Assembly (NCBI RefSeq): GCF_030815975.1
Contig: NZ_JAUSXL010000002.1
Span: forward strand, 1 to 64,000
Reading direction: 5' to 3'
Source of the DNA: Variovorax paradoxus
GTDB taxonomy: Bacteria > Pseudomonadota > Gammaproteobacteria > Burkholderiales > Burkholderiaceae_C
DNA: 64,000 bases
The notes beneath the pieces were generated by a model that was not told where the DNA came from, made no database searches, and saw only the letters and a program-made list of their open reading frames with translations. Shown here in pieces: positions 1 to 19,263 of the stretch. Positions within the stretch are counted from its first letter, which is position 1. Every line of letters begins with the position of its first letter. The position numbers and the translations under genes are program-made.

Positions 1-498
1 GGTGGCGCCACCCACGTGGGCATGGAGCAATTCGCGCAGGCGGCCGGCGTCAAGTTCAACGCCATTGCCTACAAGGGCGGTTCGGCCGCGCTGCAGGACG
101 TGCTGGGTGAACAGGTCGACATGCTGGCCGACAGCAGCTCCTGGGCGCCGCACGTCGAAAGCGGCAAGCTGCGCCTGCTCGCCACCTGGGGCGAGGCGCG
201 CACGCCGCGCTTCAAGGACACGCCCACGCTCAAGGAACTGGGCTACGACGTGGTGGTGGAAGCGCCCAACGGCATCGGCGCGCCGCGCGGGCTGCCGGCC
301 GCGGTGGAAAAGAAGCTGCGCGATGCGTTCCGCGTGGCCGTCAACAGCGAAGAATTCAAGAAGGTGGCCGACAGCATCGATGCGCCGGTCATGTACCAGG
401 ACGGCCCCGACTACCGCAAGTACGTCGAAGCCGTCTACAAGCAGGAGACCGAACTGATCCGCAAGCTCAACCTCAAGGAACTGATGGAGAAGGGTTGA
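1..498 (+). CDS. Bug/TctC-family tripartite tricarboxylate transporter substrate-binding protein (C-terminal part)
   Basis: Only the last 165 codons are present; the frame is open at base 1, so the gene begins outside the window. The text has the usual Bug C-terminal lobe: a phrase like AYKGGSAALQDVLGEQVDML, where the family binds the ligand and closes around it, then KLRLLATWGEARTPRFKDTPT and a 'GAPRGLP' stretch. Bug proteins are periplasmic receptors for small carboxylates, either feeding a TctAB permease or acting alone. No tctA/tctB is seen here. The stop overlaps the next start (ATGA), so it is translationally coupled to the dehydratase and probably delivers the acid that this operon degrades. 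Ligand cannot be read from sequence. Confidence 0.9.
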   Translation, partial: GGATHVGMEQFAQAAGVKFNAIAYKGGSAALQDVLGEQVDMLADSSSWAPHVESGKLRLLATWGEARTPRFKDTPTLKELGYDVVVEAPNGIGAPRGLPAAVEKKLRDAFRVAVNSEEFKKVADSIDAPVMYQDGPDYRKYVEAVYKQETELIRKLNLKELMEKG

Positions 499-2021
499 TG
501 AACGACAGCCCCCTACTTCGCCTGCACCCGCATGACAACGTGCTGGTTGCAAAGACCCCCATCGCCCTGGGCGAGACGATTGCCGAGTTCGGTGTGCGCG
601 CCCGCGCGCAGATTCCCGCGGGGCACAAGATCGCGTCGCGCGCCATCGCGGCCGGCGAGCAGGTGAAGAAGTACGACACCGTCATTGGCGTGGCCTCGCG
701 CGACCTCGAGGCGGGCGACTATGTGCACAGCCACAACCTGACGCTGGTGGATTCCTACCGCGACCCGGCCTTCTGCCAGGACGTGCGTCCGGTGGCCTAC
801 GTGCCCGAGGCCGAGCGCGCCACCTTCATGGGCTTTGTGCGGGCCGACGGCCGCGTGGGCACGCGCAACTTCATCGGCATTCTGTCGTCGGTCAACTGCT
901 CGGCCACCGTCATCAAGCGCATCGCGGCGCACTTCACGCCCGAGCGCCTCGCGGCCTTTCCCAACGTGGACGGCGTGGCCGCCTTCGCGCAGACCAGCGG
1001 CTGCGGCATGTCTTCGCCGAGCGAGCATTTCGACGTGCTGCGCCGCACGCTCGCGGGCTATGCGCGCCATCCCAACCTGGCCGGCGTGCTGATCGTGGGC
1101 CTGGGCTGCGAGCGCAACCAGGTCGATGCGCTGGTCGATTCCCAGGGCCTGCAGCAGGGCCGCCTCATGCGCACGATGGTGATGCAGGAGGTGGGCGGCA
1201 CGCGCCAGACTATCGAGGCCGGCATTCGCGCCGTGGAAGAGATGCTGCCCGAGGCCAATGCCGCGCAGCGCACCCGCGTGGGCGCCAACCACCTGAAGAT
1301 CGGGCTGGAGTGCGGCGGCTCCGACGGCTTCTCGGGCATCACGGCCAACCCGGCACTGGGCGCGGCCATGGACGTGCTGGTGCGCCATGGCGGCACGGCC
1401 ATTCTTTCCGAGACACCCGAGATCCACGGCGTCGAATTCATGCTCACGCGGCGCGCCGCCACGCCCGAGGTCGGCCAGAAGCTGCTCGACCGGCTGGCCT
1501 GGTGGGAGCGCTATGCCGCGGGCCAGAACGCGCAGTTCAACGGGGTCGTGGGGCACGGCAACCAGGCCGGCGGGCTGGCCAACATCTTCGAGAAATCGCT
1601 GGGCTCGGCCATGAAGGGCGGCACCACGCCGCTGCAGGCCGTGTACGAATATGCGGAGCCGATCGACCAGGCCGGCTTCGTCTTCATGGATTCGCCGGGC
1701 TACGACCCGGTGGCCGTGACCGGGCAGATCGCGAGCGGCGCGCAGCTGATCTGCTTCACCACCGGGCGCGGCTCGATGTTCGGCAGCAAGCCGGCGCCGA
1801 CCATCAAGCTGGCCAGCAACACGCCGATGTTCAAGCGTCTTGAAGAGGACATGGACATCAACTGCGGCGTGGTGATCGACGGCGAACTCTCGGTGCCCGA
1901 GCTCGGCCAGCAGATCTTCGAGCAGATCCTGCGCCATGCCTCCGGCGAGCGCACGCGCAGCGAAGCGTTGGGCCTGGGCGACCACGAGTTCGTGCCATGG
2001 CACCTGGGCATCGTGAGTTGA
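498..2021 (+). CDS. UxaA-family altronate/galactarate-type dehydratase
   Basis: A 507-residue protein of the UxaA/GarD hydro-lyase family. The N-terminus (about residues 1-95) is a SAF-like domain. The main catalytic domain follows, with the typical 'GRVGTRNFIGI' opening, cysteine-containing SVNCSATV, 'QTSGCGMSS' and 'GLECGGSDGFSGITANPALG', and ends with a family-like 'FTTGRGSMFGSKPAPTIKLASNTP'. Members dehydrate sugar acids such as altronate or galactarate to 2-keto-3-deoxy acids using iron. ATG at 498 is preferred over the in-frame TTG at 495 because it overlaps the upstream TGA. Placed before a semialdehyde dehydrogenase and an HpaI aldolase, it forms a plausible dehydrate-cleave-oxidise route. 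Exact substrate unknown. Confidence 0.88.
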   Translation: MNDSPLLRLHPHDNVLVAKTPIALGETIAEFGVRARAQIPAGHKIASRAIAAGEQVKKYDTVIGVASRDLEAGDYVHSHNLTLVDSYRDPAFCQDVRPVAYVPEAERATFMGFVRADGRVGTRNFIGILSSVNCSATVIKRIAAHFTPERLAAFPNVDGVAAFAQTSGCGMSSPSEHFDVLRRTLAGYARHPNLAGVLIVGLGCERNQVDALVDSQGLQQGRLMRTMVMQEVGGTRQTIEAGIRAVEEMLPEANAAQRTRVGANHLKIGLECGGSDGFSGITANPALGAAMDVLVRHGGTAILSETPEIHGVEFMLTRRAATPEVGQKLLDRLAWWERYAAGQNAQFNGVVGHGNQAGGLANIFEKSLGSAMKGGTTPLQAVYEYAEPIDQAGFVFMDSPGYDPVAVTGQIASGAQLICFTTGRGSMFGSKPAPTIKLASNTPMFKRLEEDMDINCGVVIDGELSVPELGQQIFEQILRHASGERTRSEALGLGDHEFVPWHLGIVS

Positions 2022-2049
2022 CTTTCTCCCTCTTCCGACGCCAAAAGAC

Positions 2050-3519
2050 ATGCCCCTGACCCTCACCCGCCCCGACCTGCAGCGCACCGCCAACTTCATC
2101 GCCGGCGAATGGTGCGGCGCCGCCGGCCGTACGCTGGACGTGACCGACCCCGCCACCGGCGCGCTCATTGCACAGGTGCCCGATTCGGGCGCCGATGCCG
2201 CGCGTGCCGCCGCCGATGCCGCGCATGCCGCCTTCCCCGCCTGGCGCCGCACGCCGGCCAAGCAGCGCGCACAGATCCTCAAGCGCTGGAACGACTTGGT
2301 GCTCGCGCATCAGGACGACCTGGGCCGCCTCATCTCGCGCGAACAGGGCAAGCCGCTGGCCGAAGGCATCGGCGAGGTCGCGTATGCGGCCAGCTACATC
2401 GAGTGGTTTGCCGAAGAGGCCACGCGCGCCAACGGCGACGTGATTCCCGCGCCCGTTCCCGGCCGGCGCATGTTCGCCATCAAGGAACCGGTGGGCGTGG
2501 TTGCCGCCATCACGCCGTGGAATTTTCCGGCCGCGATGATCGCGCGCAAGATCGCGCCGGCGCTTGCCGCGGGCTGCACCGTGGTCTGCAAGCCGGCCGA
2601 GGACACGCCGCTCACCTCGCTCGCGCTGGTGGCGCTGGCCGCGCAAGCCGGCGTGCCCGCAGGCGTGCTCAACATCGTGACGGCCTCGCGCGAGCGCACG
2701 CCCGAGGTGGTCGACGCGTGGCTGGACGATGCCCGGGTGCGCAAGATCACCTTCACCGGATCGACGCCGGTCGGCAAGCACCTGGCGCGCCGCTCGGCCG
2801 ACACGCTCAAGAAGCTGTCGCTCGAACTGGGCGGCAATGCGCCCTTCATCGTGTTCGAGGATGCCGACCTGCACGCCGCGGTCGATGGCCTGATGGCCGC
2901 CAAGTTCCGCAACGGCGGCCAGACCTGCGTGTGCCCCAACCGCGTGTTCGTGCACGAGGCCGTGCATGACGAGTTTGCCGAGCTGCTCGCCGCGCGCGTG
3001 GCGGCATTGCAAGTGGGCCCGGCCAGCGACCCCGCCTCGCAGATCGGCCCGATGATCAATGCGCGCGCCATCGAAAAGATAGAGCGCCATGTGCAGGACG
3101 CCGTGGCGCGCGGCGCGCGCGTGCTGGCCGGCGGCACGCGGCTGCCCGCGCTCGGGCCGAACTACTTCGCGCCCACCGTGCTGGTGAACGCCGACGCCAC
3201 CATGGCCTGCGCCTGCGAAGAGACCTTCGGCCCCGTCGTTCCACTGACCCGCTTCGCCGAAGAAGCCGAGGTGGTCGCCCAAGCCAACGACACGCCTTTC
3301 GGCCTGGCCGCGTACTTCTACTCGCGCGACGTGCGCCGCATCTGGCGCGTGGCGGACGCATTGGAAGCCGGCATCGTCGGCATCAACGAAGGCGCGCTGG
3401 CCGCGGAGGCCGCGCCCTTCGGCGGCGTGAAGGATTCGGGCTATGGCCGCGAAGGTTCGGTGCATGGGCTGGACGACTACCTGCACACCAAGTACGTTTG
3501 CCAGGGCCAGCTGGACTGA
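2050..3519 (+). CDS. NAD(P)-dependent succinate-semialdehyde-type dehydrogenase
   Basis: A 489-residue aldehyde dehydrogenase of full length, closest in feel to GabD-type succinate-semialdehyde dehydrogenases. Visible landmarks are the cofactor-binding '[19 protein letters not shown]', '[11 protein letters not shown]', the catalytic glutamate in '[19 protein letters not shown]' and the catalytic cysteine in '[10 protein letters not shown]'. It oxidises a short aldehyde acid to the carboxylate. In this operon the likely substrate is the aldehyde released by the downstream aldolase or a related semialdehyde, but this is inferred from position. It starts 28 bases after the dehydratase stop. Confidence 0.9.
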
Positions 3520-3557
3520 GCCGCGCGCACACGCAACACCAACAACGCAAGAGACCC

Positions 3558-4361
3558 ATGCCCGCCCACAACACCTTCAAGACAGCACTGGCCGCGCAGC
3601 GGCCGCAGATCGGCCTCTGGCTCTCGATGGCCGACCCGTACCTGGCCGAGGTGAGCGCCACCGCCGGCTTCGACTGGCTGCTGATCGACGGCGAGCACGC
3701 GCCCAACGACCTGCGCTCGACGCTGGCCGCGCTGCAGGCCGTGGCGCCCCACGCCGCGCAACCGGTGGTGCGCGCGGTGCAGGGCGACACGGCCCTCATC
3801 AAGCAGCTGCTCGACATCGGCGCAAAGAACCTGCTGGTGCCCATGGTCGACACGGCCGAACAGGCGCGCGCGCTGGTGTCGGCCACGCGCTATCCGCCGC
3901 TGGGCATCCGCGGCGTCGGCAGTGCCGTGGGCCGCGCCTCGCAGTGGAGCGCGCGCACCGACTACCTCGACATCGCCGACGCGGAAGTCTGCCTGCTGGT
4001 GCAAGCGGAAACCGTGGCGGCGCTCTCCAACCTGGCGCAGATCTGCGATGTGGACGGCATCGACGGCGTCTTCATCGGCCCCGCCGACCTTGCCGCGTCG
4101 ATGGGCCACCGCGGCAAGCCCGGGCATCCGGAGGTGCAGGCCGCGATCGAAACCGCCATGCGCACCATCGTGGCTTCGGGCAAGGCCGCAGGCACGCTGA
4201 CCTCCGACCCGAAGCTGGCGCGGCGCTACCTGGAGCTGGGCTGCAGCTTCGTCGCGGTGGGTGTCGACGTGCTGCTGTTCGCGGGCGCGGCCCGCAAGCT
4301 CGCGGCCGACTTCAGCGGCGCGCCGCCTGCCGCCGAGCCGGCCTCGCGCGCGGCCTACTGA
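3558..4361 (+). CDS. HpcH/HpaI-family class II 2-oxo acid aldolase
   Basis: A 267-residue HpcH/HpaI aldolase. The frame is open further upstream, but the ATG at 3558 (MPAHNTFK) gives the normal N-terminus after an AAGAG-type ribosome site. Family landmarks: '[14 protein letters not shown]', catalytic histidine in '[13 protein letters not shown]', metal-ligand glutamate in 'LLVQAET' and aspartate in '[12 protein letters not shown]'. Family members split 4-hydroxy-2-oxo acids (2-keto-3-deoxy sugar acids, 4-hydroxy-2-oxoheptanedioate) into pyruvate plus an aldehyde using a divalent metal. Following a UxaA dehydratase that makes 2-keto-3-deoxy acids, a sugar-acid role is more likely than homoprotocatechuate degradation; no hpa ring-cleavage genes are nearby. 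Confidence 0.9.
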
Positions 4362-4389: not shown

Positions 4390-5439
4390 CTAAGGAAGGT
4401 TCTCGCGAAAGATCACCTGGCTGCGCGTGGTTTCCACGCCGCTGAGCGCTTCGCGCTTGTCGCGCAGATTGGCGAAGATGCGCACGCAGTTCATCAGCGT
4501 GGTGTGCGGGCTCTGCGTGATCACCGCATCCATGCTGCCATCGATCAGCAGCGTGCGCGTGTCAGGCGTGAGTCCGTGCCCGATGAACACCACCTTCTGC
4601 TCGCGCCCCGCTTCCTTCAGCGCCCGCGCCACGCCGTCGGATGCGCCACCGATGTTGTAGATGCCGCCCATGTCGGGGTACTGCTCCAGCAGCGCGCGCG
4701 TCTGCCGGTAGTTCTTGCCGGCATCGTCCTGGCCTTCGCGCAGGCCCACCACTTCGAGCCGCGGAAACATCTCGTCGATCACGTGCAGGAAGCCGGCCTC
4801 GCGCTCCTCGTGCGCCTTGTAGCTCAAGCTGCCCGCGATGAGCGCGACCTTCGCGGCGCGCGCGCCGATGAAACGGCCGATGAGGTAGCCCGCGGTGCGG
4901 CCGGCCGCGCGGTTGTCCAGCCCCACGAAGGCCGCGCGCTCGGAGTTCGACAGGTCCGAGATCAGCGTGACCACCGGCAGCCCGCGCGCCGCCAGCGCGG
5001 CCACCGCCTCGCGCACCGCGGGGTGCTCCAGCGCCATCATCGCGATGCCGTCGCAGCGCTGGCCATGGCGGCGCAGCGCGTCGGCCAGTTCGTGCGGGTT
5101 GAAGCTCTCGATGAACACCGTGCGGCACTGCACGTTGAACGGCGCCCAGTGCTCCTGCGAATAGCCGACCATGTCGCCCAGCATGCGGATGAAGCGGTTG
5201 GTGCCGGCCGGCAGCAAAAACACCAGCCTGAGGGGCGGCGGCGTGAGCGCGGCATAGAGCTCCGGGCCAGGCAGGTAGTCGAGCTCGCCCGCAGCCTTGA
5301 GCACGCGCTGCACCGTGGCGTCGCGCACGCCGGGGCGGCGGTTGAGCACGCGGTCGACGGTGGCGGTCGAGACCTGCGCCGCACGCGCGATGTCGACCAC
5401 GCGCGCGCGCCGCGCATCGGTTGAAGGGTTATCCCGCAT
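4390..5439 (-). CDS. LacI-family transcriptional regulator
   Basis: A 349-residue LacI/GalR regulator. The N-terminal helix-turn-helix reads 'VVDIARAAQVSTATVDRVLN' at about residues 14-33, with the hinge near residue 60. A periplasmic-binding-like effector domain fills the rest ('HEEREAGFLHVIDEMFP', 'GIYNIGGASDGVARAL'), typical of the sugar-binding PBP type I fold. It is divergent from the TRAP operon across a 124-bp gap holding three TGCATCA-type sites, and converges with the HpaI gene. It therefore probably controls uptake and catabolism of the sugar acid in this region. Effector unknown. Confidence 0.93.
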   Translation of the reverse strand: MRDNPSTDARRARVVDIARAAQVSTATVDRVLNRRPGVRDATVQRVLKAAGELDYLPGPELYAALTPPPLRLVFLLPAGTNRFIRMLGDMVGYSQEHWAPFNVQCRTVFIESFNPHELADALRRHGQRCDGIAMMALEHPAVREAVAALAARGLPVVTLISDLSNSERAAFVGLDNRAAGRTAGYLIGRFIGARAAKVALIAGSLSYKAHEEREAGFLHVIDEMFPRLEVVGLREGQDDAGKNYRQTRALLEQYPDMGGIYNIGGASDGVARALKEAGREQKVVFIGHGLTPDTRTLLIDGSMDAVITQSPHTTLMNCVRIFANLRDKREALSGVETTRSQVIFRENLP

Positions 5440-5464
5440 ACATCAAAAACCATCAAGTTCGAGT

Positions 5465-5493: not shown

Positions 5494-5532
5494 CCCTGTG
5501 GCTCTCATCCAATGGTGCATCAGATTGCATCA
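5472..5532. promoter_or_regulatory. Cluster of TGCATCA sites, candidate LacI operators
   Basis: TGCATCA occurs at 5516-5522 and 5526-5532 as a direct repeat with a 3-base gap, and as its complement TGATGCA at 5475-5481 within GGATGATGCATCC (5472-5484). The cluster fills the divergent lacI/TRAP spacer. Assignment to this regulator is inference from position. Confidence 0.45.
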
Positions 5533-5563: not shown

Positions 5564-6583
5564 ATGACATCGCTGACCCGCCGCAGTGCCTTGCGCACGC
5601 TTTCCGCCCTCCCCGCCGCCGGCATCGTGAGCGCCCTGCCGCGCATCGCCCGCGCGGCCGAGTTCTCGTACAAGTACGGCAACAACCTGCCGCTCAGCCA
5701 TCCGCTGAACATCCGCGCGCAGGAGGCGGCCGACCGCATTGCCAAGGAAAGCAAGGGCCGGGTCGAGATCAAGATCTTCCCCAACAACCAGCTCGGCGGC
5801 GACACCGACATGCTGGCGCAGGTGCGCTCGGGCGGCATCGAGTTCTTCACGCCGTCCGCGCTGGTGATTGCCACGCTGGTGCCGGTGGCCGCCATCAACG
5901 CCGTGGGCTTCGCGTTCAACGACTACGGCCAGGTGTGGGGCGCCATGGACGGCCAGCTCGGCGCGCACGTGCGCGGCGCCATCGCCAAGTCGCGCCTCCA
6001 TGCCTTCGAGAAGATGTGGGACAACGGCTTTCGCCAGACCACCAGCAGCAAGGCCGCGGTCACCAACGCCAAGGACATGGACGGCCTGAAGATCCGCGTG
6101 CCCGTGAGCCCGCTGTCGATTTCGATGTTCAAGGGCCTGGGCGCCGCGCCCGCGAGCCTGCAGTTCAGCGAGGTGTATTCCGCGCTGCAGACGAAGATCG
6201 TCGATGCGCAGGAGAACCCGCTGCCGATCATCCAGGTGGCCAAGCTGTTCGAGGTGCAGAAGTTCTGCTCGCTCACCAACCACATCTGGGACGGCTACTG
6301 GTTCATTGCCAACGGCCGCGCCTGGGAGGCGTTGCCCGACGACCTCAAGACCATCGTCTCGCGTGCCATCAACGACGCCGGCATGCAGCAGCGCGAAGAC
6401 ATCAAGAAGCTCAACGAATCGGTCGTCGGCGACCTGCAGGCCAAGGGCCTCAGCATCAACCGCCCGGTGGCCGAGAGCTTTCGCGCCAAGCTGCGCGAGT
6501 CGGGCTTTTATGGCGAGTGGAAGGGCCGCTTCGGCCCCGAGGCGTGGGCGCTGCTCGAAGGCGCCGTCGGCAAGCTGGCCTGA
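5564..6583 (+). CDS. TRAP transporter substrate-binding protein (DctP family)
   Basis: A 339-residue periplasmic TRAP receptor. The start at 5564 gives an export signal with a twin-arginine pair ('SLTRRSALRTLSALPAAG') and an Ala-rich cleavage region before AEFSYKYGNN. The mature part has DctP features: 'NIRAQEAADRIAKESKGRVEIKI', 'NQLGGDTDMLAQVRSGGIEF', and the carboxylate-binding region around 'LKIRVPVSPLSI' with the arginine that pairs with ligand carboxylate in this family. It should bind an organic or sugar acid and hand it to the fused permease that starts 7 bases later. An upstream ATG-less extension in the same frame is not likely to be translated. Confidence 0.93.
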   Translation: MTSLTRRSALRTLSALPAAGIVSALPRIARAAEFSYKYGNNLPLSHPLNIRAQEAADRIAKESKGRVEIKIFPNNQLGGDTDMLAQVRSGGIEFFTPSALVIATLVPVAAINAVGFAFNDYGQVWGAMDGQLGAHVRGAIAKSRLHAFEKMWDNGFRQTTSSKAAVTNAKDMDGLKIRVPVSPLSISMFKGLGAAPASLQFSEVYSALQTKIVDAQENPLPIIQVAKLFEVQKFCSLTNHIWDGYWFIANGRAWEALPDDLKTIVSRAINDAGMQQREDIKKLNESVVGDLQAKGLSINRPVAESFRAKLRESGFYGEWKGRFGPEAWALLEGAVGKLA

Positions 6584-6589
6584 CCGCCC

Positions 6590-8485
6590 ATGGTGCATGA
6601 ATCCACTTTCGAGGCCGCGCCTTTCGTGGGCGCCGGCCCGTCCGCCAACGCGCTGAGCGGCATGGCCGGGCGCGCCGACCGCGTGCTGGGCGGCGCGGTC
6701 GAGGCCGTGGCCGCGCTGCTGGTGCTGGCCGAGATCTGCGTGCTGTTCGCGGGCGTGGTGTCGCGCTATGTGTTCCATGCGCCGCTGGTGTGGTCGGACG
6801 AGCTCGCGTCGATCCTGTTCCTGTGGCTCTCGATGCTCGGCGCGGTGGTGGCGTTGCGGCGCGGCGAGCACATGCGCATGACGGCGCTGCTGCAGAAGGT
6901 GCAGCCGCACACGCGGGCGATGCTCGACGCCTTTGCCATCGCGGCTTCGGTCGCGTTCCTGGTGCTGATCATCTGGCCGTCGATCGACTACGCGCACGAG
7001 GAGTCGTTCATCGTCACGCCCGCGCTGGAGATCAGCAACGCCTGGCGCGCCGCGGCCATTCCAACGGGCATCGGCATCATGCTGGCGATGGCGCTGCTGC
7101 GCCTTTTGCGCGTGTGCACCGGGCGGCAGATCGCAGTCGCGGTGCTCGGCATGGCGGCGCTGGTGGCGGCTTTCTGGCTGGCTGCGCCGCTGTTCGCGAC
7201 GCTCGGCAAGTTCAACCTCGTGATCTTCTTTGTGGTGGTGGTGGCGGCCACGGTGCTTTCGGGCGTGCCCATCGCGTTCTCGTTCGCGCTGGCCACCTTC
7301 GGCTACCTGGCGCTCACCACGCGCACGCCGCTGCTGGTGATGGTGGGGCGCCTGGACGAAGGCATGTCGCACCTGATCCTGCTCGCGGTGCCGCTCTTCA
7401 TCTTCCTGGGCGCGCTGATCGAGATGACGGGCATGGCGCGCGCCATGATCCAGTTTCTTGCGAGCCTGCTGGGCCACGTGCGCGGCGGCCTCTCGTATGT
7501 GCTGATCGGAGCGATGTACCTGGTGTCGGGCATCTCGGGCTCCAAGATCGCCGACATGGCGGCCATTGCGCCCGTGCTGTTCCCCGAGATGGTCAAGCGC
7601 GGCGCCAAGCCCGGCGACCTGGTGGCGCTGCTGTCGGCCACCGGCGCGCAGACCGAGACCATTCCGCCGTCGATCGTGCTCATCACCATCGGCTCGGTCA
7701 CGGGCATTTCCATCGCGGCGCTCTTCACCGGCGGGCTGCTGCCCGCCGTGGTGCTGGGCGCCGCGCTGTGCGCGGTGGTGTGGTGGCGTTACCGGCGCGA
7801 AGACCTGAGCGGCGTGCAGCGCCACAGCAGGCGCGAGGTCGGCAAGCTGCTGCTGGTTGCGTTGCCCGCGGTGCTGCTGCCCTTCGTGATCCGCGCCGCC
7901 GTGGTCGAGGGCGTGGCCACGGCCACCGAGGTGTCGACCATCGGCATTGTTTACTCGGCCATCGTCGGGCTCTTCGTGTACCGGCAGTTCGACTGGAAAC
8001 GGCTCAAGCCGATGCTGGTCGACACGGCCTCGCTCTCGGGCGCGATCATCTTCATTGTCGGCTGCGCCACGGCCATGGCCTGGGGCCTCACGCAGTCGGG
8101 CTTCTCGCAGGACCTGGCACGCGTCATGGGCGCGCTGCCGGGCGGCGCCTACGGCTTCCTGGCCGTGTCGATCGTGGCCTTCATCGTGCTGGGCAGCGTG
8201 CTCGAGGGCATTCCGGCCATCGTGCTGTTCGGGCCGTTGCTGTTTCCCATTGCCAAGGCCGCGGGCGTGCACGAGGTGCACTACGCCATGGTCGTGATCT
8301 TCGCGATGGGCATCGGCCTGTTCGCGCCGCCCTTCGGCGTGGGCTACTACGGCGCCTGCGCCGTCAGCAAGGTCAACCCCGACGAAGGCATCAGGCACAT
8401 CTGGGGCTACATCGCCGCGATGCTGGTGGGCCTGGTGATCGTGGCCGCGTTCCCGTGGTTCTCGACCGGTTTTCTCAAGTTCTGA
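6590..8485 (+). CDS. Fused TRAP transporter permease (DctQ-DctM)
   Basis: A 631-residue inner-membrane protein in which the small four-helix DctQ subunit (about residues 25-190, with 'FAGVVSRYVFHAPLVWSDEL') is fused to the large DctM permease (about 205-631, with 'PIAFSFALATFGYLAL', 'VPLFIFLGALIEMTG', 'SGISGSKIADMAAIAPVL' and 'GIGLFAPPFGVGYYGACA'). The fused form is common in TRAP systems. With the SBP directly upstream it makes a complete sodium-coupled importer. It starts seven bases after the SBP stop, so the three components are co-transcribed. Confidence 0.93.
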   Translation: MVHESTFEAAPFVGAGPSANALSGMAGRADRVLGGAVEAVAALLVLAEICVLFAGVVSRYVFHAPLVWSDELASILFLWLSMLGAVVALRRGEHMRMTALLQKVQPHTRAMLDAFAIAASVAFLVLIIWPSIDYAHEESFIVTPALEISNAWRAAAIPTGIGIMLAMALLRLLRVCTGRQIAVAVLGMAALVAAFWLAAPLFATLGKFNLVIFFVVVVAATVLSGVPIAFSFALATFGYLALTTRTPLLVMVGRLDEGMSHLILLAVPLFIFLGALIEMTGMARAMIQFLASLLGHVRGGLSYVLIGAMYLVSGISGSKIADMAAIAPVLFPEMVKRGAKPGDLVALLSATGAQTETIPPSIVLITIGSVTGISIAALFTGGLLPAVVLGAALCAVVWWRYRREDLSGVQRHSRREVGKLLLVALPAVLLPFVIRAAVVEGVATATEVSTIGIVYSAIVGLFVYRQFDWKRLKPMLVDTASLSGAIIFIVGCATAMAWGLTQSGFSQDLARVMGALPGGAYGFLAVSIVAFIVLGSVLEGIPAIVLFGPLLFPIAKAAGVHEVHYAMVVIFAMGIGLFAPPFGVGYYGACAVSKVNPDEGIRHIWGYIAAMLVGLVIVAAFPWFSTGFLKF

Positions 8486-8522
8486 TCACAACAACACACT
8501 CACATCAACGGAGCCAACCGCA

Positions 8523-9062
8523 ATGAGTCGATTCCTCGGCGAGATCCGCCAGCTGGGCTATGTCGTGCACGACATCGAAGCCGCCATGGACTACTGGAGC
8601 ACCACGCTGGGCGTGGGCCCGTGGTTCTACAACCCCAAGGTGCCGATCAAGAACTACCGCTACAACGGCCAGGCGCACGAGCCTCACAACTCGGTGGCGT
8701 TGGCCAACTCGGGCTATGTGCAGGTCGAGCTGATCCAGACGCGCAACGACGTGCCCTCGATGTACCGCGACTTCCTGCAGGCCGGCCGCACCGGGCTGCA
8801 GCACGTGGCCTACTGGACGGCCGACTACGACGCCGACCTCGCGCGCCTCACCGCGCAGGGCTTCAAGCCTGTGATGAGCGGCGAGGTGGGCGAGCGCGGG
8901 CGCTTCATCTACTTCGACACCGAGTACCACCCGGGCACGGTCATCGAGCTGTCCGAAGTGGCGGGCCCCAAGGGCAAGATGTTCGACCTGATCCGCAACG
9001 CCTCCGAAGGCTGGGACGGCAGCGAGCCGGTGCGGCCCTTTCCCGATCTGAGCAAGCTGTGA
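8523..9062 (+). CDS. VOC-family (glyoxalase/epimerase-like) protein
   Basis: A 179-residue protein of the vicinal-oxygen-chelate fold, seen in 'IRQLGYVVHDIEAAMDYWSTTLGVGPW' at the start and a second half with 'GLQHVAYWTADYDADLARL' and 'EYHPGTVIELSE'. Histidines and the late glutamate could bind a metal. VOC proteins include glyoxalases, epimerases, isomerases and dioxygenases, so the reaction cannot be named. It lies between the permease and the RLP with a GTGA overlap to the RLP, arguing for a catalytic step (isomerisation or epimerisation) in the same pathway. Confidence 0.85.
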   Translation: MSRFLGEIRQLGYVVHDIEAAMDYWSTTLGVGPWFYNPKVPIKNYRYNGQAHEPHNSVALANSGYVQVELIQTRNDVPSMYRDFLQAGRTGLQHVAYWTADYDADLARLTAQGFKPVMSGEVGERGRFIYFDTEYHPGTVIELSEVAGPKGKMFDLIRNASEGWDGSEPVRPFPDLSKL

Positions 9063-10330
9063 CCGTGACTGAACGCATCCGCGCGCGCTACCTGATCGAG
9101 ACGCCGCTGGACCCGGCCGCCGTGGCCGAGGTGATGGCCGGCGAACAATCGTGCGGCACCTTCACGCGCGTGGGGGGCGAGACCGACGCGCTGCGCGAAC
9201 GCGCGCGCGCCACCGTCGAGGCGATCACCGAGCTTGTGCCTGCCGAAGTACCGAGCCTGCCCAACGCGCTGCTCGAACGCAAGGGCACGCGCGGCCCGTG
9301 GCGGCGTGCGCACGTCGACATCTCTTTTCCGATGTCGAACATCGGCGCCAACCTGCCGACGCTCGCGGCCACGGTGTCAGGCAACCTCTACGACCTGGGC
9401 GAAGTGACGGGCCTGCGGCTCGAATCGCTGCAGCTTCCTGCCGCCTACCGCACGCAATTCGAAATGCCGCGCATCGGCATCGCGGGCACGCGGCGCGCCA
9501 CCGGCGTGGCCAGCGGCGCGCTGGTCGGCACCATCATCAAGCCAAACGTGGGACTGTCCGCGAACGAGACCGCCGAGCTGGTCGCCAGGCTCTGCGCCGC
9601 GGGCGTCGACTTCATCAAGGACGACGAGGTGTGTGCCGACCCCGCGCATGCGCCGCTCGCCGAGCGCGTACCCGCGGTGATGGCCGTGGTGCGCGCACAC
9701 CAGCAGCGCACCGGCAAGCACGTGATGGTGGCCTTCAACATCACCGACGAAACCGATGCGATGAAGCGGCATGCCGACCTGGTCGAGCGCGAAGGCGGAT
9801 CGTGCGTGATGGCCAGCCTCAACTGGTGCGGCCATTCGGGCATGCAGACCCTGCGCCGCCACACCGGCCTGGCGCTGCACGGCCACCGCAACGGCTACGG
9901 CGCGCTGTCGCGCCATCCGCTGCTGGGCATTTCGTTCCAGGCCTATCAAACGCTCTGGCGGCTGGCCGGCGTCGACCACATGCACGTGCACGGCCTGCAG
10001 GGCAAGTTCTCGCAGCCCGACAGCGAAGTCGTCGAATCGGCGCGCGACTGCTTCACGCCGCTGACCGATGCCGCCGACGACCGCGTGATGCCGGCCTTCT
10101 CGTCGGGCCAATGGGCCGGCACCGTGCCCGCCACCTGGGCCGCCATCGGCATCGACGACCTGCTCTTCATGGCCGGCGGTGGCATCCTCGCGCATCCCGA
10201 TGGCGCAGCGGCCGGCGTCACGAGCATCCGCCAGGCCTGGTCGGCCGCGCGCGCCGGCATCGCGCTGCAAGAAGCCGCCCGCGGCGCGCCCGAACTGGCG
10301 CGCGCGCTGGCCTTCTTCGGCAGGCCGTGA
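9059..10330 (+). CDS. RuBisCO-like protein, possible 3-oxo-isoapionate-4-phosphate (trans)carboxylase-type enzyme
   Basis: A 423-residue RuBisCO large-subunit homologue (start GTG at 9059, overlapping the VOC stop). Compared by eye with plant RuBisCO, it keeps K175 (here K161 in 'TIIKPNVGLS'), the carbamylated-lysine/metal motif (K187, D189, E190 in 'FIKDDE'), H294/R295 (H276-R277 in 'HGHR') and the loop-6 lysine (K316 in 'GLQGKFSQ'). K177 is replaced by N163 and H298 by Y280. That is not a true CO2-fixing RuBisCO but retains a full metal site, as expected for RLPs acting on a phosphorylated 3-oxo sugar acid. The gene that follows is a DUF1537 kinase, the pairing known from D-apionate pathways (OiaK with an RLP). 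Substrate identity is inference. Confidence 0.85.
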   Translation: MTVTERIRARYLIETPLDPAAVAEVMAGEQSCGTFTRVGGETDALRERARATVEAITELVPAEVPSLPNALLERKGTRGPWRRAHVDISFPMSNIGANLPTLAATVSGNLYDLGEVTGLRLESLQLPAAYRTQFEMPRIGIAGTRRATGVASGALVGTIIKPNVGLSANETAELVARLCAAGVDFIKDDEVCADPAHAPLAERVPAVMAVVRAHQQRTGKHVMVAFNITDETDAMKRHADLVEREGGSCVMASLNWCGHSGMQTLRRHTGLALHGHRNGYGALSRHPLLGISFQAYQTLWRLAGVDHMHVHGLQGKFSQPDSEVVESARDCFTPLTDAADDRVMPAFSSGQWAGTVPATWAAIGIDDLLFMAGGGILAHPDGAAAGVTSIRQAWSAARAGIALQEAARGAPELARALAFFGRP

Positions 10331-11694
10331 TGCCGGCCGCTCAAGTGCCGGCCATCGTCTACTACGGCGACGATTTCACCGGCGCCACCGACACCCTTGG
10401 CACCGCCGCGCGCGCAGGCCTGCGGGCCCTGCTGTTCCTGAACACGCCCGATGCCGCGCGGCTCGCGCAAGCCGGCCCGCTCGACGTGCTGGGCATTGCA
10501 GGCGCCGCCCGCGCCATGGCGCCCGAAGCCATGCAGGCCGAGCTGGCCCCGGTCGCCGCGCTGTTCCGCTCGCTCAGCGCGCGCGTGCTGCACTACAAGA
10601 CCTGCTCGACCTTCGACAGCGCGCCGCACATCGGCTCCATCGGCGCAGCCGTGCGCGCGCTGCGCGGCGCCGTCGAACAACCCTGGACCGCGATCGTCGG
10701 CGGCCAGCCCAACATCGGCCGGCATTGCCTGTTCGGCCACCTGTTCGCCGCGGCCGGCGCGGGCGGCGAGGTGTTTCGCATCGACCGGCATCCGACGATG
10801 AGCCGGCACCCGGTCACGCCGATGCACGAGGCGGACCTGAGGCTGCACCTGGCGGCGCAGGGCTTGGCCGGCATGCACTCCATTCCTTTCACGGCCGCCT
10901 CACGGGGCCCGGATGCGCTCGGCGAGGCGCTGCAGCGCGCACTGCGCCTGCCCTCCGCTGTGGCCGATGCCGATGATGCCCAGGCCGTGCTGTTCGACGT
11001 GGCCGATGCCCCGCAGCTCGCGGCCATCGGCCATGTGCTGTGGTCCGAGGCCCGGCGCGCCACGCTGCTTGCCGTGGGCCCGAGCAGCGTGGTCGATGCG
11101 CTGGCCAGCGCGCTCGGCACGCGCAGCGATTCGCCGGCCGACTCGCGCCACGTCACTCCCGCGCGCGGCCCCGTGCTCGTGCTTGCCGGAAGCCTGTCGC
11201 CCGTGACGGCGCGGCAGGTGGCGGCGGCACGCTCGTTCGACACCGTGTGGCTCGATGCGCCACGGCTCGCGCAACGCGACGCGGCCACGCTGGAGCGCCA
11301 TGCCCGCGAGATCGCGCAGGGCCTTGCCCGCGGCCGCCACATGCTGGCCTGCACCCGCCCCGCCGAGCAGACGCCCACCGAGGGCCACAACGTCGATGCC
11401 CAGTCCCTCTCCCGCGCCGGCGGCGACCTGCTGGCCAAGGTGCTGGCGATGGCGCCGCTGCACCGCGTCGGCATTGCCGGAGGCGACACTTCGAGCCACG
11501 CCGTGCAGGCGCTCGATGCGTGGGGGCTCTCCTATGTGGCCGACATGGGCGCCGGCGCCTCGCTGTGCCGCGTGCACAGCGACGACGCCGCGCTCGACGG
11601 CATGGAGATCATGCTCAAGGGCGGCCAGATGGGCTCGGACGATGTGTTCGAGCGCCTGGTGCATGGTGATGCGGGCAGCGGCCCGCTTTCGTGA
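10330..11694 (+). CDS. DUF1537 four-carbon acid sugar kinase family protein, OiaK-like
   Basis: A 454-residue kinase of the DUF1537 family; start at 10330 overlaps the RLP stop (ATGA). The N-terminal substrate domain carries the signature 'GDDFTGATD' at residues 13-21 and 'YKTCSTFDS'. The C-terminal nucleotide domain has 'LVLAGSLSPVTARQVA', 'GIAGGDTSSHAVQAL' and 'LKGGQMGSDDVF'. Known members phosphorylate threonate, erythronate, 2-oxo-tetronates or 3-oxo-isoapionate at the terminal hydroxyl. Coupled to an RLP, the most likely product is the phosphorylated keto-acid substrate of that enzyme. It is the last gene of the operon and converges with a phosphodiesterase gene. Confidence 0.9.
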   Translation: MPAAQVPAIVYYGDDFTGATDTLGTAARAGLRALLFLNTPDAARLAQAGPLDVLGIAGAARAMAPEAMQAELAPVAALFRSLSARVLHYKTCSTFDSAPHIGSIGAAVRALRGAVEQPWTAIVGGQPNIGRHCLFGHLFAAAGAGGEVFRIDRHPTMSRHPVTPMHEADLRLHLAAQGLAGMHSIPFTAASRGPDALGEALQRALRLPSAVADADDAQAVLFDVADAPQLAAIGHVLWSEARRATLLAVGPSSVVDALASALGTRSDSPADSRHVTPARGPVLVLAGSLSPVTARQVAAARSFDTVWLDAPRLAQRDAATLERHAREIAQGLARGRHMLACTRPAEQTPTEGHNVDAQSLSRAGGDLLAKVLAMAPLHRVGIAGGDTSSHAVQALDAWGLSYVADMGAGASLCRVHSDDAALDGMEIMLKGGQMGSDDVFERLVHGDAGSGPLS

Positions 11695-15646: not shown

Positions 15647-16153
15647 ATGAAAAAACTCTCCCTCATCGTTGCAGCGACCCTTGCAGTCACCACCAGCGCA
15701 GTACTGGCGGCCACGGGCCCGGCCACTGCCACGTTCCAGGTTCTGATCAATGTCGCCAAGGCCTGCTCGGTTGTGGCGGGCGCCGGCTCCAAGATCGATT
15801 TCGGTACGGTCGATTCGTCGGCCACCAGCCTGAGCGGCAACAGCAACATCAGCGTGACCTGCTCCAAGACCACGCCCTACAACATTGGCCTGCTGCCCTC
15901 GAACAACAGCACCACCGGCGCCGGCGTGATGAGCCCCGCGAGCGGTTCGGACACTGTCGCCTACCAGCTTCGTTCGGTGAGCGCTACGGGCGCCGTCTGG
16001 GGCAGCACGGCCACGGCCACCGCAGTGGGCAACGGCGTGGCCGGCACCGGCACCGGCGCGGCGCAGACGATTCCCGTGTACGCCACGGTTGCCAGCGCCA
16101 ACGTGACGCCTGGCGCCTACGCCGACACGGTGACGGTCCAAGTCAACTACTGA
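15647..16153 (+). CDS. Spore-coat-U-domain major pilin subunit of an archaic chaperone-usher pilus
   Basis: A 168-residue secreted protein with a clear signal peptide (MKKLSLIVAATLAVTTSAVLA) and one spore coat protein U (SCPU) domain. Features are 'FQVLINVAKACSVV', 'IDFGTVDSS', 'NISVTCSKTTPYNIGL', 'VAYQLRS', 'WGST' and the C-terminal 'GAYADTVTVQVNY' strand. Two cysteines could form the usual disulphide. In archaic chaperone-usher systems such as Csu these subunits polymerise by donor-strand exchange. Being first in the operon with its own promoter, it is probably the main shaft subunit. A run of ATCGATTG-type repeats (16152-16172) separates it from the chaperone gene. Confidence 0.9.
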   Translation: MKKLSLIVAATLAVTTSAVLAATGPATATFQVLINVAKACSVVAGAGSKIDFGTVDSSATSLSGNSNISVTCSKTTPYNIGLLPSNNSTTGAGVMSPASGSDTVAYQLRSVSATGAVWGSTATATAVGNGVAGTGTGAAQTIPVYATVASANVTPGAYADTVTVQVNY

Positions 16154-16175
16154 TCGATTGATCGATCGATTGCCC

Positions 16176-16904
16176 ATGCGCCGCCTGCTCCGCCATACCG
16201 CTGTTCTCGCGCTTGCCCTGGTGCAGGCGGTCGCATCGGCAAGCGGGCTGCAGGTGTCTCCGGTCACGCTGACGCTGCAGGCCACGCAAAACGCCGAAGG
16301 CCTTTGGCTCAGCAACACGGGCGACACGGTGGTGCACGCGCAGGTGCGCGTCTACCACTGGGCGCAGGAGAACGGGGCAGAAAAGCTGACGCCCTCGCGC
16401 GAACTGCTGGTCAGTCCGCCGATGGTGCAGCTGGCCGCCTCGGACCGGCAGCTGATCCGCGTGATTCGCACGGGCGTTCCGGCCGGCACGGTCGAAGGCT
16501 CGTACCGGGTCGTGATCGACGAGCTGCCGGTGGAGATGAAGGACAAGAAGGGCCTGCAGCTGGTGCTGCGCTATTCGGTGCCGATCTTCATTGCAGCCGC
16601 GGGCGCGCAGTCGTCCGAGCCGCAGCTCGCATGGTCGCTGCGCCGCGAGGAAGGCCAAACGGTGCTCGAAGTGACCAACAGCGGCGGCATGCATGCGCAG
16701 CTTGCCGATGTGGAATATGTCGATACGGTGGGCCGCCGCACGCCGGTGCATGCCGGCCTGCTGGGCTACGTTTTGCCAGGTGCGCGCATGCGCTGGCCAC
16801 TGAAGACTCCCGCGGAGGCATTTGCCCTCGGCGGCATCCTGGAAACGAAGATCAATGGCAACGCGACGCAGGAAAAAATCCCGCCGCTCCCACGCGCCCG
16901 CTGA
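16176..16904 (+). CDS. Pilus periplasmic chaperone (PapD-like)
   Basis: A 242-residue chaperone starting at 16176 (MRRLLRHTAVLALALVQAVA, a signal peptide; upstream in-frame start codon rejected). Two immunoglobulin-like domains are visible: N-terminal 'LQVSPVTLTLQATQNAEGLWLSN' and G1-like 'RQLIRVIRTG', then 'EGSYRVVIDELPVE' and a C-terminal domain ending 'GGILETKINGNATQEK'. It folds SCPU subunits in the periplasm and delivers them to the usher. Its end overlaps the usher start by 50 bases, indicating translational coupling. Confidence 0.9.
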   Translation: MRRLLRHTAVLALALVQAVASASGLQVSPVTLTLQATQNAEGLWLSNTGDTVVHAQVRVYHWAQENGAEKLTPSRELLVSPPMVQLAASDRQLIRVIRTGVPAGTVEGSYRVVIDELPVEMKDKKGLQLVLRYSVPIFIAAAGAQSSEPQLAWSLRREEGQTVLEVTNSGGMHAQLADVEYVDTVGRRTPVHAGLLGYVLPGARMRWPLKTPAEAFALGGILETKINGNATQEKIPPLPRAR

Positions 16905-19263
16905 GCGCCTGCTGCCACTGCTGCTTCTTTCCGGCCTGATGTCTTTTGCCGCCCAGGCTGAGAATGCCGCAGCCGGCTCGGGCTCATCTTTGGTCGCGCC
17001 CGCGGAGGGCGAGCTGGCCGGCCCCACCGGCAGCGACCTCTACCTGGACCTGAGCCTCAACGGCAACCCGCAGGGGCTGGTGCACTTTGGCCTGCGCGGC
17101 CAGGAGCTGTGGGCCAGCGCCGCCACGCTGCGGCAGCTGGGCTTTGTGCTGCCGGCGGGCGTGTCCGACCCGGTGCGGCTCAAGAGCCTTCCGGGGTTGC
17201 AGATCAAGTACGACGCCGCCACCCAGAGCGTTGCAATCAACGCCTCCGCCGATGTGCTGCGACTGCCCACGACGGTGGTCGACACGTCGACGACCATCGT
17301 GCCCAAGGCCAGCGCTTCGCCCGGCCTGCTGCTCAACTACGACCTGTATGGCACGCAGGGCCGCGGCAACACGTCGAGCCTGAACGCGCTGACCGAGTTG
17401 CGCGCGTTCACCGGAAGCACGGTGCTCAGCAACACGATGATGTCGCGCTCGGCGCGCCTTCCGGGCGAAGGCTGGACGCACGACTCGGTGCGGCTGGACA
17501 CGACGCTGAGCACCTCGTTCCCTGAAGACATGCTGACGCTTCGCGTGGGCGACACCACTACGGCCGCGCTGCCGTGGTCGCGCTCCACGCGCATCGGCGG
17601 CATCCAGCTGTCGCGCAACTTTGCGCTGCAGCCCTATCGCACGACCACGCCGCTGCCGGCCTTCCTGGGGGCGGCCGCGCTGCCTTCGCAGGTGGAGCTG
17701 TACATCAACGGCATGCGCCAGTACACGGGCCAGGTGCCGGCGGGGCCGTTTCAACTGAAGACGGTGCCGAGCATCAATGGTGCAGGCAATGCCCAGGTGG
17801 TGTTGACCGATGCCTTCGGCCGTGCGACGACGCTCGACTTTTCGTTGTACGACACGCAGCGGCTGCTGGAGGCGGGCCTGTCGGACTGGTCGGTGGACCT
17901 GGGCATGGTGCGCAAGGACTACGGCCTGCGCTCGTTCGAATACGGCAGCGATCCGGCGGCCAGCGGCACCTGGCGCTATGGCGTGAACAACAGCTTCACG
18001 ATGGAAGCGCATGGCGAAGCCACCAAGGGATTGGTGAAGGCCGGCGTGGGCGGCGCCTGGCTGCTCGGCCAGAGCGGTGTGCTGGCGGGCGCGGTGGCGC
18101 GCAGCAGCTACCGCTCGGAGCAAGGCTCGCTGGCCAACCTGGGCTACAGCTGGCGCGACAACCACTTCAACTTTGCGGTCGAAGGCACGCGCACCTACGG
18201 CGAGTACGGCGACGTGGCGTCGCTGTACGGCAGCGCGCCCGCGCGCGGATCGGGCCGCGCCTCGATCGGCTACACCACGGGGAGCTTCGGCAGCTTTGGC
18301 CTGAGCTTCCTGTACCTGCGCTATCCGGCGCAGCAGCCGACGCGGCTGGCCAGCGTCTACTGGTTCAGCGCGATAGGCCGCGGCGCCTCGGTGAACGTGA
18401 GCCTCAACCAGAACCTGGACAACCGCCGCGAGCGCAGCCTGTACGTCGGCTTCACCTGGGCGCTGGACGGCAAGATCACGGCCAGCACCGGCGTGCAGCG
18501 CGACGGCGACCGCACCACCTTCTCGGCCGACGCGCAAAGCTCGATTCCGGGCGAAGGCGGCATCGGCTGGCGCGCCGGCCTGCGCCAAGGCGGCGGCCAG
18601 AACGGCGGCCAGGCCGAGGTCGACTACCTGGGCCGCTACGGCCGCGCGATGGCCGGCATCAGCGTGCTGGGCGACAGCCGCTATGCCTACGCGGGCGCCA
18701 CGGGTTCGATCGCGTTCATGGGCGGCCAGCCCTTTGCGGCGCGGCGCATCGACGATGCCTTTGCGGTGGTTTCCACCGACGGCATTGCGGGCGTGCCGGT
18801 GAGGCTGGAGAACCGCGACATCGGCACCACCGACAGCCACGGCATGCTGCTGGTGGCACCGCTGCGGGCCTACCAGAACAACCAGCTGTCGATCGACCCG
18901 ATGCAGTTGCCGGCGGACGTGCGGATCGAGCGCGTGAAAACGGTGGCCACGCCGAGCGACCGCGCCGGCACGCTGGTGCGCTTTGGCATCGCGCCGATCA
19001 ATGCGGCGGCGCTGCTGCTGGCGGACGAGGCGGGCAAGCCGCTGCCGCTGGGCAGCCGCGTACGCGCGAACGGCGGCACCGGCGAGCCGGCGCTGGTCGG
19101 CTTTGACGGCGCGGTGTACCTGGAGTCTCTGCAGCCGCGCAACACGCTCGACGTGCAGACGCCGGGCGGGCGCTGCCGCGCGAGCTTCGACTATCGCAAG
19201 GACGGCGCGGGCATTCCGCAGATCGGACCGCTGCGCTGCATCAGGGAGGCCAGGACGCCATGA
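16855..19263 (+). CDS. Outer-membrane usher of the archaic chaperone-usher pilus
   Basis: An 802-residue usher; ATG 16855 gives a basic N-terminus and signal sequence (LLPLLLLSGLMSFAAQA). The order is an N-terminal chaperone-binding domain ('DLYLDLSLNGNPQGLVHFGL'), a large beta-barrel with plug ('VELYINGMRQYTGQVPAGPF', 'FGRATTLDFSLYDTQRLLEAGL'), and C-terminal domains ('NRDIGTTDSHGMLLVAPLRAYQNN', 'LPADVRIERV', 'RCRASFDY'). It is the secretion pore and assembly platform. It overlaps both the chaperone gene and the tip-subunit gene, so all are one operon. Confidence 0.93.
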   Translation: MATRRRKKSRRSHAPAERLLPLLLLSGLMSFAAQAENAAAGSGSSLVAPAEGELAGPTGSDLYLDLSLNGNPQGLVHFGLRGQELWASAATLRQLGFVLPAGVSDPVRLKSLPGLQIKYDAATQSVAINASADVLRLPTTVVDTSTTIVPKASASPGLLLNYDLYGTQGRGNTSSLNALTELRAFTGSTVLSNTMMSRSARLPGEGWTHDSVRLDTTLSTSFPEDMLTLRVGDTTTAALPWSRSTRIGGIQLSRNFALQPYRTTTPLPAFLGAAALPSQVELYINGMRQYTGQVPAGPFQLKTVPSINGAGNAQVVLTDAFGRATTLDFSLYDTQRLLEAGLSDWSVDLGMVRKDYGLRSFEYGSDPAASGTWRYGVNNSFTMEAHGEATKGLVKAGVGGAWLLGQSGVLAGAVARSSYRSEQGSLANLGYSWRDNHFNFAVEGTRTYGEYGDVASLYGSAPARGSGRASIGYTTGSFGSFGLSFLYLRYPAQQPTRLASVYWFSAIGRGASVNVSLNQNLDNRRERSLYVGFTWALDGKITASTGVQRDGDRTTFSADAQSSIPGEGGIGWRAGLRQGGGQNGGQAEVDYLGRYGRAMAGISVLGDSRYAYAGATGSIAFMGGQPFAARRIDDAFAVVSTDGIAGVPVRLENRDIGTTDSHGMLLVAPLRAYQNNQLSIDPMQLPADVRIERVKTVATPSDRAGTLVRFGIAPINAAALLLADEAGKPLPLGSRVRANGGTGEPALVGFDGAVYLESLQPRNTLDVQTPGGRCRASFDYRKDGAGIPQIGPLRCIREARTP

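Follow-up and report, generated by a model that had tools for sequence, protein, structure and literature searches.

The window analysed here is a stretch of 64,000 nucleotides from the soil bacterium Variovorax paradoxus, lying at the start of a large contig in a genome of 6.1 Mb (labelled G000; further G and L numbers denote genomes and loci). At positions 5564–11694 it holds five close-packed or overlapping genes, which encode the receptor and the fused permease of a tripartite ATP-independent periplasmic (TRAP) transporter, a vicinal oxygen chelate (VOC) protein, a RuBisCO-like protein (RLP) and a DUF1537 kinase, next to a divergent gene for a LacI-family regulator. Comparison with related loci leans towards a new entry step into the catabolism of an acid like apionate, a sugar acid of plants.

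4390–5439, minus strand: divergent LacI-family regulator with a Peripla_BP_4 (sugar-binding type) domain (Pfam LacI and Peripla_BP_4); found in 77 of 80 homologous loci
5564–6583, plus strand: TRAP periplasmic receptor of DctP type, ATG at 5564; best solved relative 4oan
6590–8485, plus strand: fused TRAP permease DctQ-DctM (Pfam DctQ 99.7 bits, DctM 351.6 bits)
8523–9062, plus strand: VOC-fold protein, predicted metal-dependent isomerase (Pfam Glyoxalase_4, 95.2 bits)
9059–10330, plus strand: RLP, N177 class (N163 here), predicted to decarboxylate (or hydrolyse) a 3-oxo-4-phospho acid (OiaX model, tree, active-site residues)
10330–11694, plus strand: DUF1537 (SBD_N/NBD_C) kinase related to OiaK (Pfam SBD_N 169.5 bits; OiaK model 295.9 bits)

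The GTG start of the RLP gene overlaps the stop codon of the VOC gene (9059 versus 9062), and the ATG of the kinase gene overlaps the RLP stop (10330). Every gene of the operon described in an earlier, sequence-only reading of this DNA, from receptor to kinase together with the LacI gene, is in place, and a residue check recovered the RLP positions it had named (KDDE, H276-R277, K316 and N163). The full set comprises K161, N163, K187-D188-D189-E190, H276-R277 and K316, so that the checked RuBisCO catalytic residues other than K177 are kept; N163 occupies what we take to be the K177 position (RuBisCO numbering). With asparagine at this position and a Pfam RuBisCO_large score of 214.7 bits, the protein falls among the RuBisCO-like proteins, and its identity to V. 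paradoxus proteins reaches 96%. True RuBisCO was ruled out for it by model scores, residues and tree. The genome has a true RuBisCO-like large-subunit match at C2:4401885.

Judged by model scores, the RLP and the kinase are relatives of OiaX and OiaK, not members of these families. The best NCBIfam model for the RLP is OiaX (NF042437, 442.9 bits) and that for the kinase is OiaK (NF042436, 295.9 bits, with OtnK at 150.8), and in neither case is the cut-off of 700 reached. On the same OiaX model, the OiaX-annotated proteins of L122 and L128 score 761.4 and 785.6 bits, and no RLP in 274 genomes of the window's class passes the cut-off, the best scoring 472.6. The sequence-only placement nearest OiaX and OiaK instead of MtnW holds, at 442.9 bits for OiaX against 156.3 and 126.7 for the MtnW models. 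MtnW was rejected for the RLP on both models (TIGR03332, cut-off 513.6, 126.7 bits; NF007095, cut-off 409, 156.3 bits), with tree and residues also against it. A second DUF1537-type protein of G000, at C2:1703057-1703815 (L274), scores 248.5 bits to SBD_N.

A tree of 109 RLPs, built with a quick method and with long branches flagged, places the VOC-linked RLPs, G400 excepted, in one monophyletic clade of 75 rows (SH-aLRT 100). Its sister group consists of L119, L121 and L123 (support 88), all with genes for short-chain dehydrogenases/reductases (SDRs), and next comes the group that contains OiaX. The remark made at the outset on N163 turned out to be diagnostic, as the residue at position 177 tracks the presence of the VOC gene. 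In a census of 145 distinct RLPs of at least 42% identity, many of them close kin, the later ones fetched by VOC and the cases not independent events, asparagine occurs with VOC in 118 and at a contig end in one, serine without VOC in 24, alanine without VOC in one and serine with VOC in one. The solved RuBisCO-like protein 3nwr aligns to the window RLP at 656.9 bits, ungapped over residues 6–421, shares KPN at position 177 and very probably belongs to the same clade. At L202 (G360), an RLP-kinase-TRAP set stands with two SDR genes and without a VOC or ApnO match; this genome also has an RLP of the VOC-linked clade.

An RLP-only scan returned at least 582 relatives, of which the best 80 loci, at 73–95% RLP identity, come from Comamonadaceae, Alcaligenaceae, Burkholderiaceae, Azospirillum, Bosea, Xanthobacteraceae and others. 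Among these best 80, the VOC gene adjoins the RLP gene in 79 (the 80th, L029, begins at a contig end), the kinase gene is present in all 80 and LacI in 77, a conservation of gene order at such identities that chance would not produce. Loci fetched by the RLP alone have the VOC gene in 79 of 79 visible cases, and at 59–66% RLP identity five loci on plasmids, from Rhizobiaceae and Rhodobacterales, repeat the same order. A set of 96 VOC loci (stretches of at least 11 kb, VOC identity at least 55%) includes 85 with RLP and kinase and 11 without an RLP; the 85 RLP modules divide into 69 with this type of TRAP transporter, eight with a more distant TRAP and eight with no TRAP match, four of the last showing an SBP_bac_3 receptor. 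Of 399 genomes in the window's family, 25 gave VOC matches; those of at least 66% identity are followed by an N-type RLP (21/21), and those of 44–54% are not (7/7). These counts indicate a core of VOC, RLP and kinase with an exchangeable transporter, and by gene content the module is a conserved proteobacterial unit. The choice of TRAP over an ATP-binding cassette importer, put forward in the sequence-only reading as a distinguishing mark, fails as one: L119 and L122 carry both ApnO and TRAP, and eight of 85 VOC-RLP modules show no TRAP. Behind the kinase gene, the best 80 loci share no recurring gene that would process the product; genes for a TIM-like protein and RpiB appear only in the OiaX locus L128, and none in the OiaX locus L122.

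D-apionate pathways reportedly (Carter and colleagues, 2018) run through ApnO, OiaK and OiaX or through a transcarboxylase/hydrolase variant; ApnO is taken here to be a PGDH_C-domain protein with a weak N-terminus resembling ketol-acid reductoisomerase. The module has in common with these pathways the RLP–DUF1537 pair, the catalytic residues and the superfamily branch, but it differs in having VOC (sometimes with SDR) and no ApnO that we found, in asparagine instead of serine or alanine at the K177 position, and in RLP and kinase scores far below the OiaX and OiaK cut-offs. Two RLP reactions of the D-apionate pathways are named in a passage of PMC6302742. An ApnO query found no match in G000, in a search without its own positive control, and no ApnO lies within 9 kb of VOC in any of the 96 loci (0/96), so the early observation that no apionate oxidoisomerase is visible stands; the accompanying idea that VOC takes its place fits the tie between VOC and the RLP clade. 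The same query matched 13 loci besides its own at 46–80% identity, none of them with this VOC. ApnO adjoins the RLP in L118, L122 and L128, and none was found in the stretches of the S-type RLP loci L121, L123, L124 and L130. An SDR gene is present in 12 of the 85 RLP modules, all among the 69 with this TRAP type.

By alignment, the expected metal ligands of the VOC protein are Q10, E69, H94 and E142, presumably the same Q, E, H, E set that binds the metal in human glyoxalase I. All four residues are present in 119 of the 120 distinct sequences from VOC modules, the remaining one being partial, and in 16 of 16 from RLP-less loci. We propose that the VOC protein is a metal-dependent isomerase acting ahead of the kinase; it may move a hydrogen, taking a 2-oxo to a 3-oxo form, or, like ApnO, a hydroxymethyl group. 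Methylmalonyl-CoA epimerase was rejected as its identity (TIGR03081, 26.2 bits, cut-off 114.95). The neighbours of four VOC paralogues of 50–54% identity, namely P450, Rieske, SDR, CMD or transporter genes, offer no hint of the substrate.

Two gene replacements bear on the chemistry. The G400 locus (L199) keeps LacI, receptor, DctQM and VOC of the module at 64–83% identity, with an RLP only 56% and a kinase only 37% identical to those of the window. This RLP has serine at position 177, the only S-type RLP found with VOC, and in both trees the nearest relatives of the G400 RLP and kinase, among the sequences compared, are those of G373, which stand beside ApnO. An apionate-type RLP–kinase pair thus seems to have replaced the original pair in G400, suggesting a shared or closely similar intermediate for the two pairs.

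The other replacement came from a VOC search of 397 genomes of the order of G400, which matched in 38; 30 were taken as loci, 15 had no adjoining RLP, and for nine of the 15 wider regions were analysed. TRAP, VOC, kinase, a PdxA-type dehydrogenase, a DeoR regulator and a DeoC/LacD aldolase, and no RLP, occur together in six loci of five genomes (L263, L264, L265, L267, L271 and L272); in this PdxA set the family names rest on Pfam or NCBIfam for part of the members and on similarity for the others. Parts of the set are found in L262, L266 and L268, L261 has only VOC, TRAP and LacI, and in Azospirillum thermophilum L125 carries LacI, TRAP, VOC, kinase, PdxA and DeoR, at which its stretch ends. 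The five PdxA-set kinases in the tree group as a single clade (100/100), which lies within the OiaK-type kinases (99/96), and the three that were scanned are OiaK-like at 473–489 bits. Querying eight PdxA-set genomes with the RLP gave no RLP or RuBisCO match in G829, G806 and G732, only 32–33% matches in G502 and G787, and one match of 44–46% elsewhere in each of G591, G557 and G620. A DUF1537 kinase with PdxA2 makes up the D-threonate-type pathway, and the PdxA here resembles D-threonate-4-phosphate dehydrogenase among others; the PdxA set (for example L125, L264, L265, L267, L272) keeps kinase and PdxA beside the same VOC and a TRAP, whereas the window module has an RLP and no PdxA. RLP and PdxA, each found with VOC, TRAP and kinase, look like alternative routes by which a 4-phospho acid loses CO2 via the 3-oxo form, with TRAP and VOC as a shared entry. 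The aldolase of the PdxA set hints at a product larger than dihydroxyacetone phosphate (DHAP), and with it at a branched acid.

The transporter is of DctP type in both receptor fold and DctQ/DctM permease. The best solved relative of its receptor is the DctP-type TRAP receptor 4oan (446.5 bits, 61–63% identity), and a receptor model built from an alignment reached a predicted local distance difference test score (pLDDT) of 88.9, compared with 37.7 for a single-sequence model. Transfer of the 4oan ligand to the window receptor was rejected, as 4oan sits in a different gene setting.

We tentatively read the module, at a little under even confidence, as an operon under LacI control that breaks down a small hydroxy- or keto-sugar acid, the likeliest being a branched C5 compound of apionate/isoapionate type. 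The analysis shows gene content, conservation, clades, residue patterns and gene replacements; the reactions and the substrate are inferred. The TRAP system would import the acid, and the VOC protein, a metal-dependent isomerase with glyoxalase-I-like ligands, would make the kinase substrate and so do the rearrangement half of the work of ApnO, with an adjacent SDR supplying the oxidation half in some genomes. The DUF1537 kinase would phosphorylate a terminal hydroxyl, and the RLP would decarboxylate (or cleave) the resulting 3-oxo-4-phospho acid, yielding a phosphorylated sugar that enters central metabolism. A bolder version, which we consider doubtful, would make VOC a VOC-fold ketol-acid isomerase (mutase) and, by itself or together with the SDR, an independently evolved form of the ApnO step; what it produces would feed two interchangeable decarboxylation routes, an N177 RLP of new specificity or a PdxA-type dehydrogenase, and the acid would be a branched, plant-derived compound not yet recognised as a bacterial nutrient.

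Several observations weigh against the apionate-type assignment. The ligand of 4oan is, we assume, 2-acetolactate and no sugar acid, and its TRAP system adjoins an acyl-CoA synthetase gene in a genome without the window-type RLP; acetolactate would, for its part, correspond to the carbon skeleton of 3-oxo-isoapionate minus two extra hydroxyls. No close SDR partner was found in G000, where the best of 60 SDR-like places listed has 47% identity (L273) and neighbours that, judged by eye, suggest no sugar role. As 73 of the 85 RLP modules have no SDR within 9 kb, the reading has to suppose either a dehydrogenase encoded elsewhere or the uptake of a keto acid. The QEHE ligands also occur in 11 of 11 VOC paralogues below 55% identity and hence mark the wider family, not the module, and no VOC enzyme is known to us to carry out a ketol rearrangement. 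Asparagine versus serine at position 177 may signal a different substrate, and four genomes (G274, G360, G664 and G712) each carry a window-type RLP along with another RLP 49–53% identical to it, so that the two are not redundant. Finally, the PdxA architecture implies that the kinase handles a 3-hydroxy acid, but a decarboxylating RLP needs a 3-oxo one.

A linear C4 acid is an unlikely substrate. In the 3-oxo-tetronate pathway, OtnI is the isomerase, OtnK the kinase and OtnC the decarboxylase; the module repeats this logic of isomerase, DUF1537 kinase and decarboxylase, but with a VOC isomerase and an RLP decarboxylase, folds unlike those of OtnI and OtnC. Here 2-oxo- or 3-oxo-tetronate would be imported, interconverted by VOC as by OtnI, phosphorylated as by OtnK and decarboxylated by the RLP straight to DHAP as by OtnC. 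The required 1,2-hydrogen shift is ordinary glyoxalase-like chemistry, the PdxA of the sister architecture has D-threonate-4-phosphate dehydrogenase among its likenesses, and the lack of a recurring downstream gene weakly suggests that the product may enter central metabolism directly, although the OiaX locus L122 lacks TIM and RpiB too. The kinase, however, is closer to OiaK than to OtnK (295.9 versus 150.8 bits), the aldolase of the sister architecture would be needless if the product were DHAP, and the nearest compared relatives of the G400 pair belong to an ApnO-linked set. The G400 exchange, indicating an apionate-type intermediate, also counts against another kind of branched acid, a 2-C-carboxy-alditol or 2-C-methyl-tetronate (for example hamamelonate, a dephosphorylated plant RuBisCO inhibitor), on which the RLP would perform chemistry like that of RuBisCO, run towards decarboxylation. 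We consider this improbable: PdxA-type chemistry indicates a 4-phospho-3-hydroxy acid and nothing links the module to these compounds, even though the RLP clade is distinct with its own residue at position 177, the remaining checked catalytic residues are kept, the sister aldolase would suit a pentulose-1-phosphate, and the same four genomes combine the window-type RLP with other RLPs of the family.

Less probable again is the import of short branched keto acids like 2-acetolactate, with the RLP acting on a non-sugar acid. This would fit the receptor's 61–63% identity to 4oan, taken to bind 2-acetolactate, but acetolactate would offer no primary hydroxyl to a kinase of this kind, 4oan stands in another gene setting, and the LacI sensor domain is of the sugar-binding type. 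A screen did find 2-acetolactate among TRAP receptor ligands, according to a passage of a review (PMC5812351). Very improbable, and the least favoured, is ordinary D-apionate catabolism with ApnO elsewhere in the genome and VOC as an accessory; the relationship of RLP and kinase to OiaX and OiaK would suit it, but the ApnO query went unmatched in G000 while finding 46–80% relatives in 13 other loci, and ApnO occurs within 9 kb of VOC in 0 of 96 loci.

Control by LacI may act through two sites in the intergenic region between the LacI and receptor genes.

5441–5455, plus strand: candidate operator CATCAAAAACCATCA, motif CATCAN5CATCA
5518–5532, plus strand: candidate operator CATCAGATTGCATCA, motif CATCAN5CATCA, 77 bp away from the first site

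The motif is a direct repeat of CATCA with a ten-base pitch, whereas operators of the LacI family are expected to be palindromic. Across 77 homologous loci the motif matches 127 times, with 117 of these matches in the LacI–receptor intergenic region; 64 of the 77 have at least one site there, and copies are 76–78 bp apart in 29 of the 40 loci with two or more. The window has two matches against 0.11 expected, and these are the sole pair among 11 genome-wide; the nine single sites elsewhere in G000 (L276, L277 and L280–L286) outnumber the one match of a reversed-pattern control. Reading frames around five of the nine, listed by eye, led to no assignment.

Beyond the LacI gene lie three genes for further sugar-acid enzymes, which the sequence-only reading had placed behind the operon.

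495–2021, beyond the LacI gene: GarD-type dehydratase (galactarate dehydratase model at 362.7 bits, with a cut-off of 730.85)
2050–3519, beyond the LacI gene: aldehyde dehydrogenase (ALDH) resembling succinate-semialdehyde dehydrogenase
3558–4361, beyond the LacI gene: HpaI-type aldolase

This part of that reading does not stand. The GarD, ALDH and HpaI genes are found with the module in no more than 6, 4 and 6 of the 80 homologous loci, all Variovorax, compared with 77 for LacI, 79 for VOC and 80 for the RLP, and on this rare co-occurrence they were rejected as module members and assigned to a separate operon. A TctC-type receptor gene precedes them, and together the four make up a second sugar-acid operon (window 16–4361), cut by the contig start. 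Further along, at 15647–20288, the window holds a gene cluster that, judged by eye from translations, resembles usher, chaperone and surface-subunit genes.

The operon is real and was in the main read correctly from the sequence alone. Acid pathways that pair an RLP with a DUF1537 kinase are of a kind already known, and by its gene content the module differs from them in its proposed VOC entry enzyme. What is new here is the ApnO-type pair within the otherwise intact module of G400 and the architecture in which PdxA and an aldolase replace the RLP. To our knowledge, few RuBisCO-like proteins have a known reaction; the present comparison defines an RLP subgroup by three linked marks, a VOC partner, asparagine at the K177 position and a clade of its own, and the G400 exchange and the RLP/PdxA alternation narrow the reaction that it probably catalyses to a decarboxylation in which a 4-phospho acid passes through the 3-oxo form. 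If the VOC protein is indeed an isomerase, this would be new chemistry for the VOC fold.

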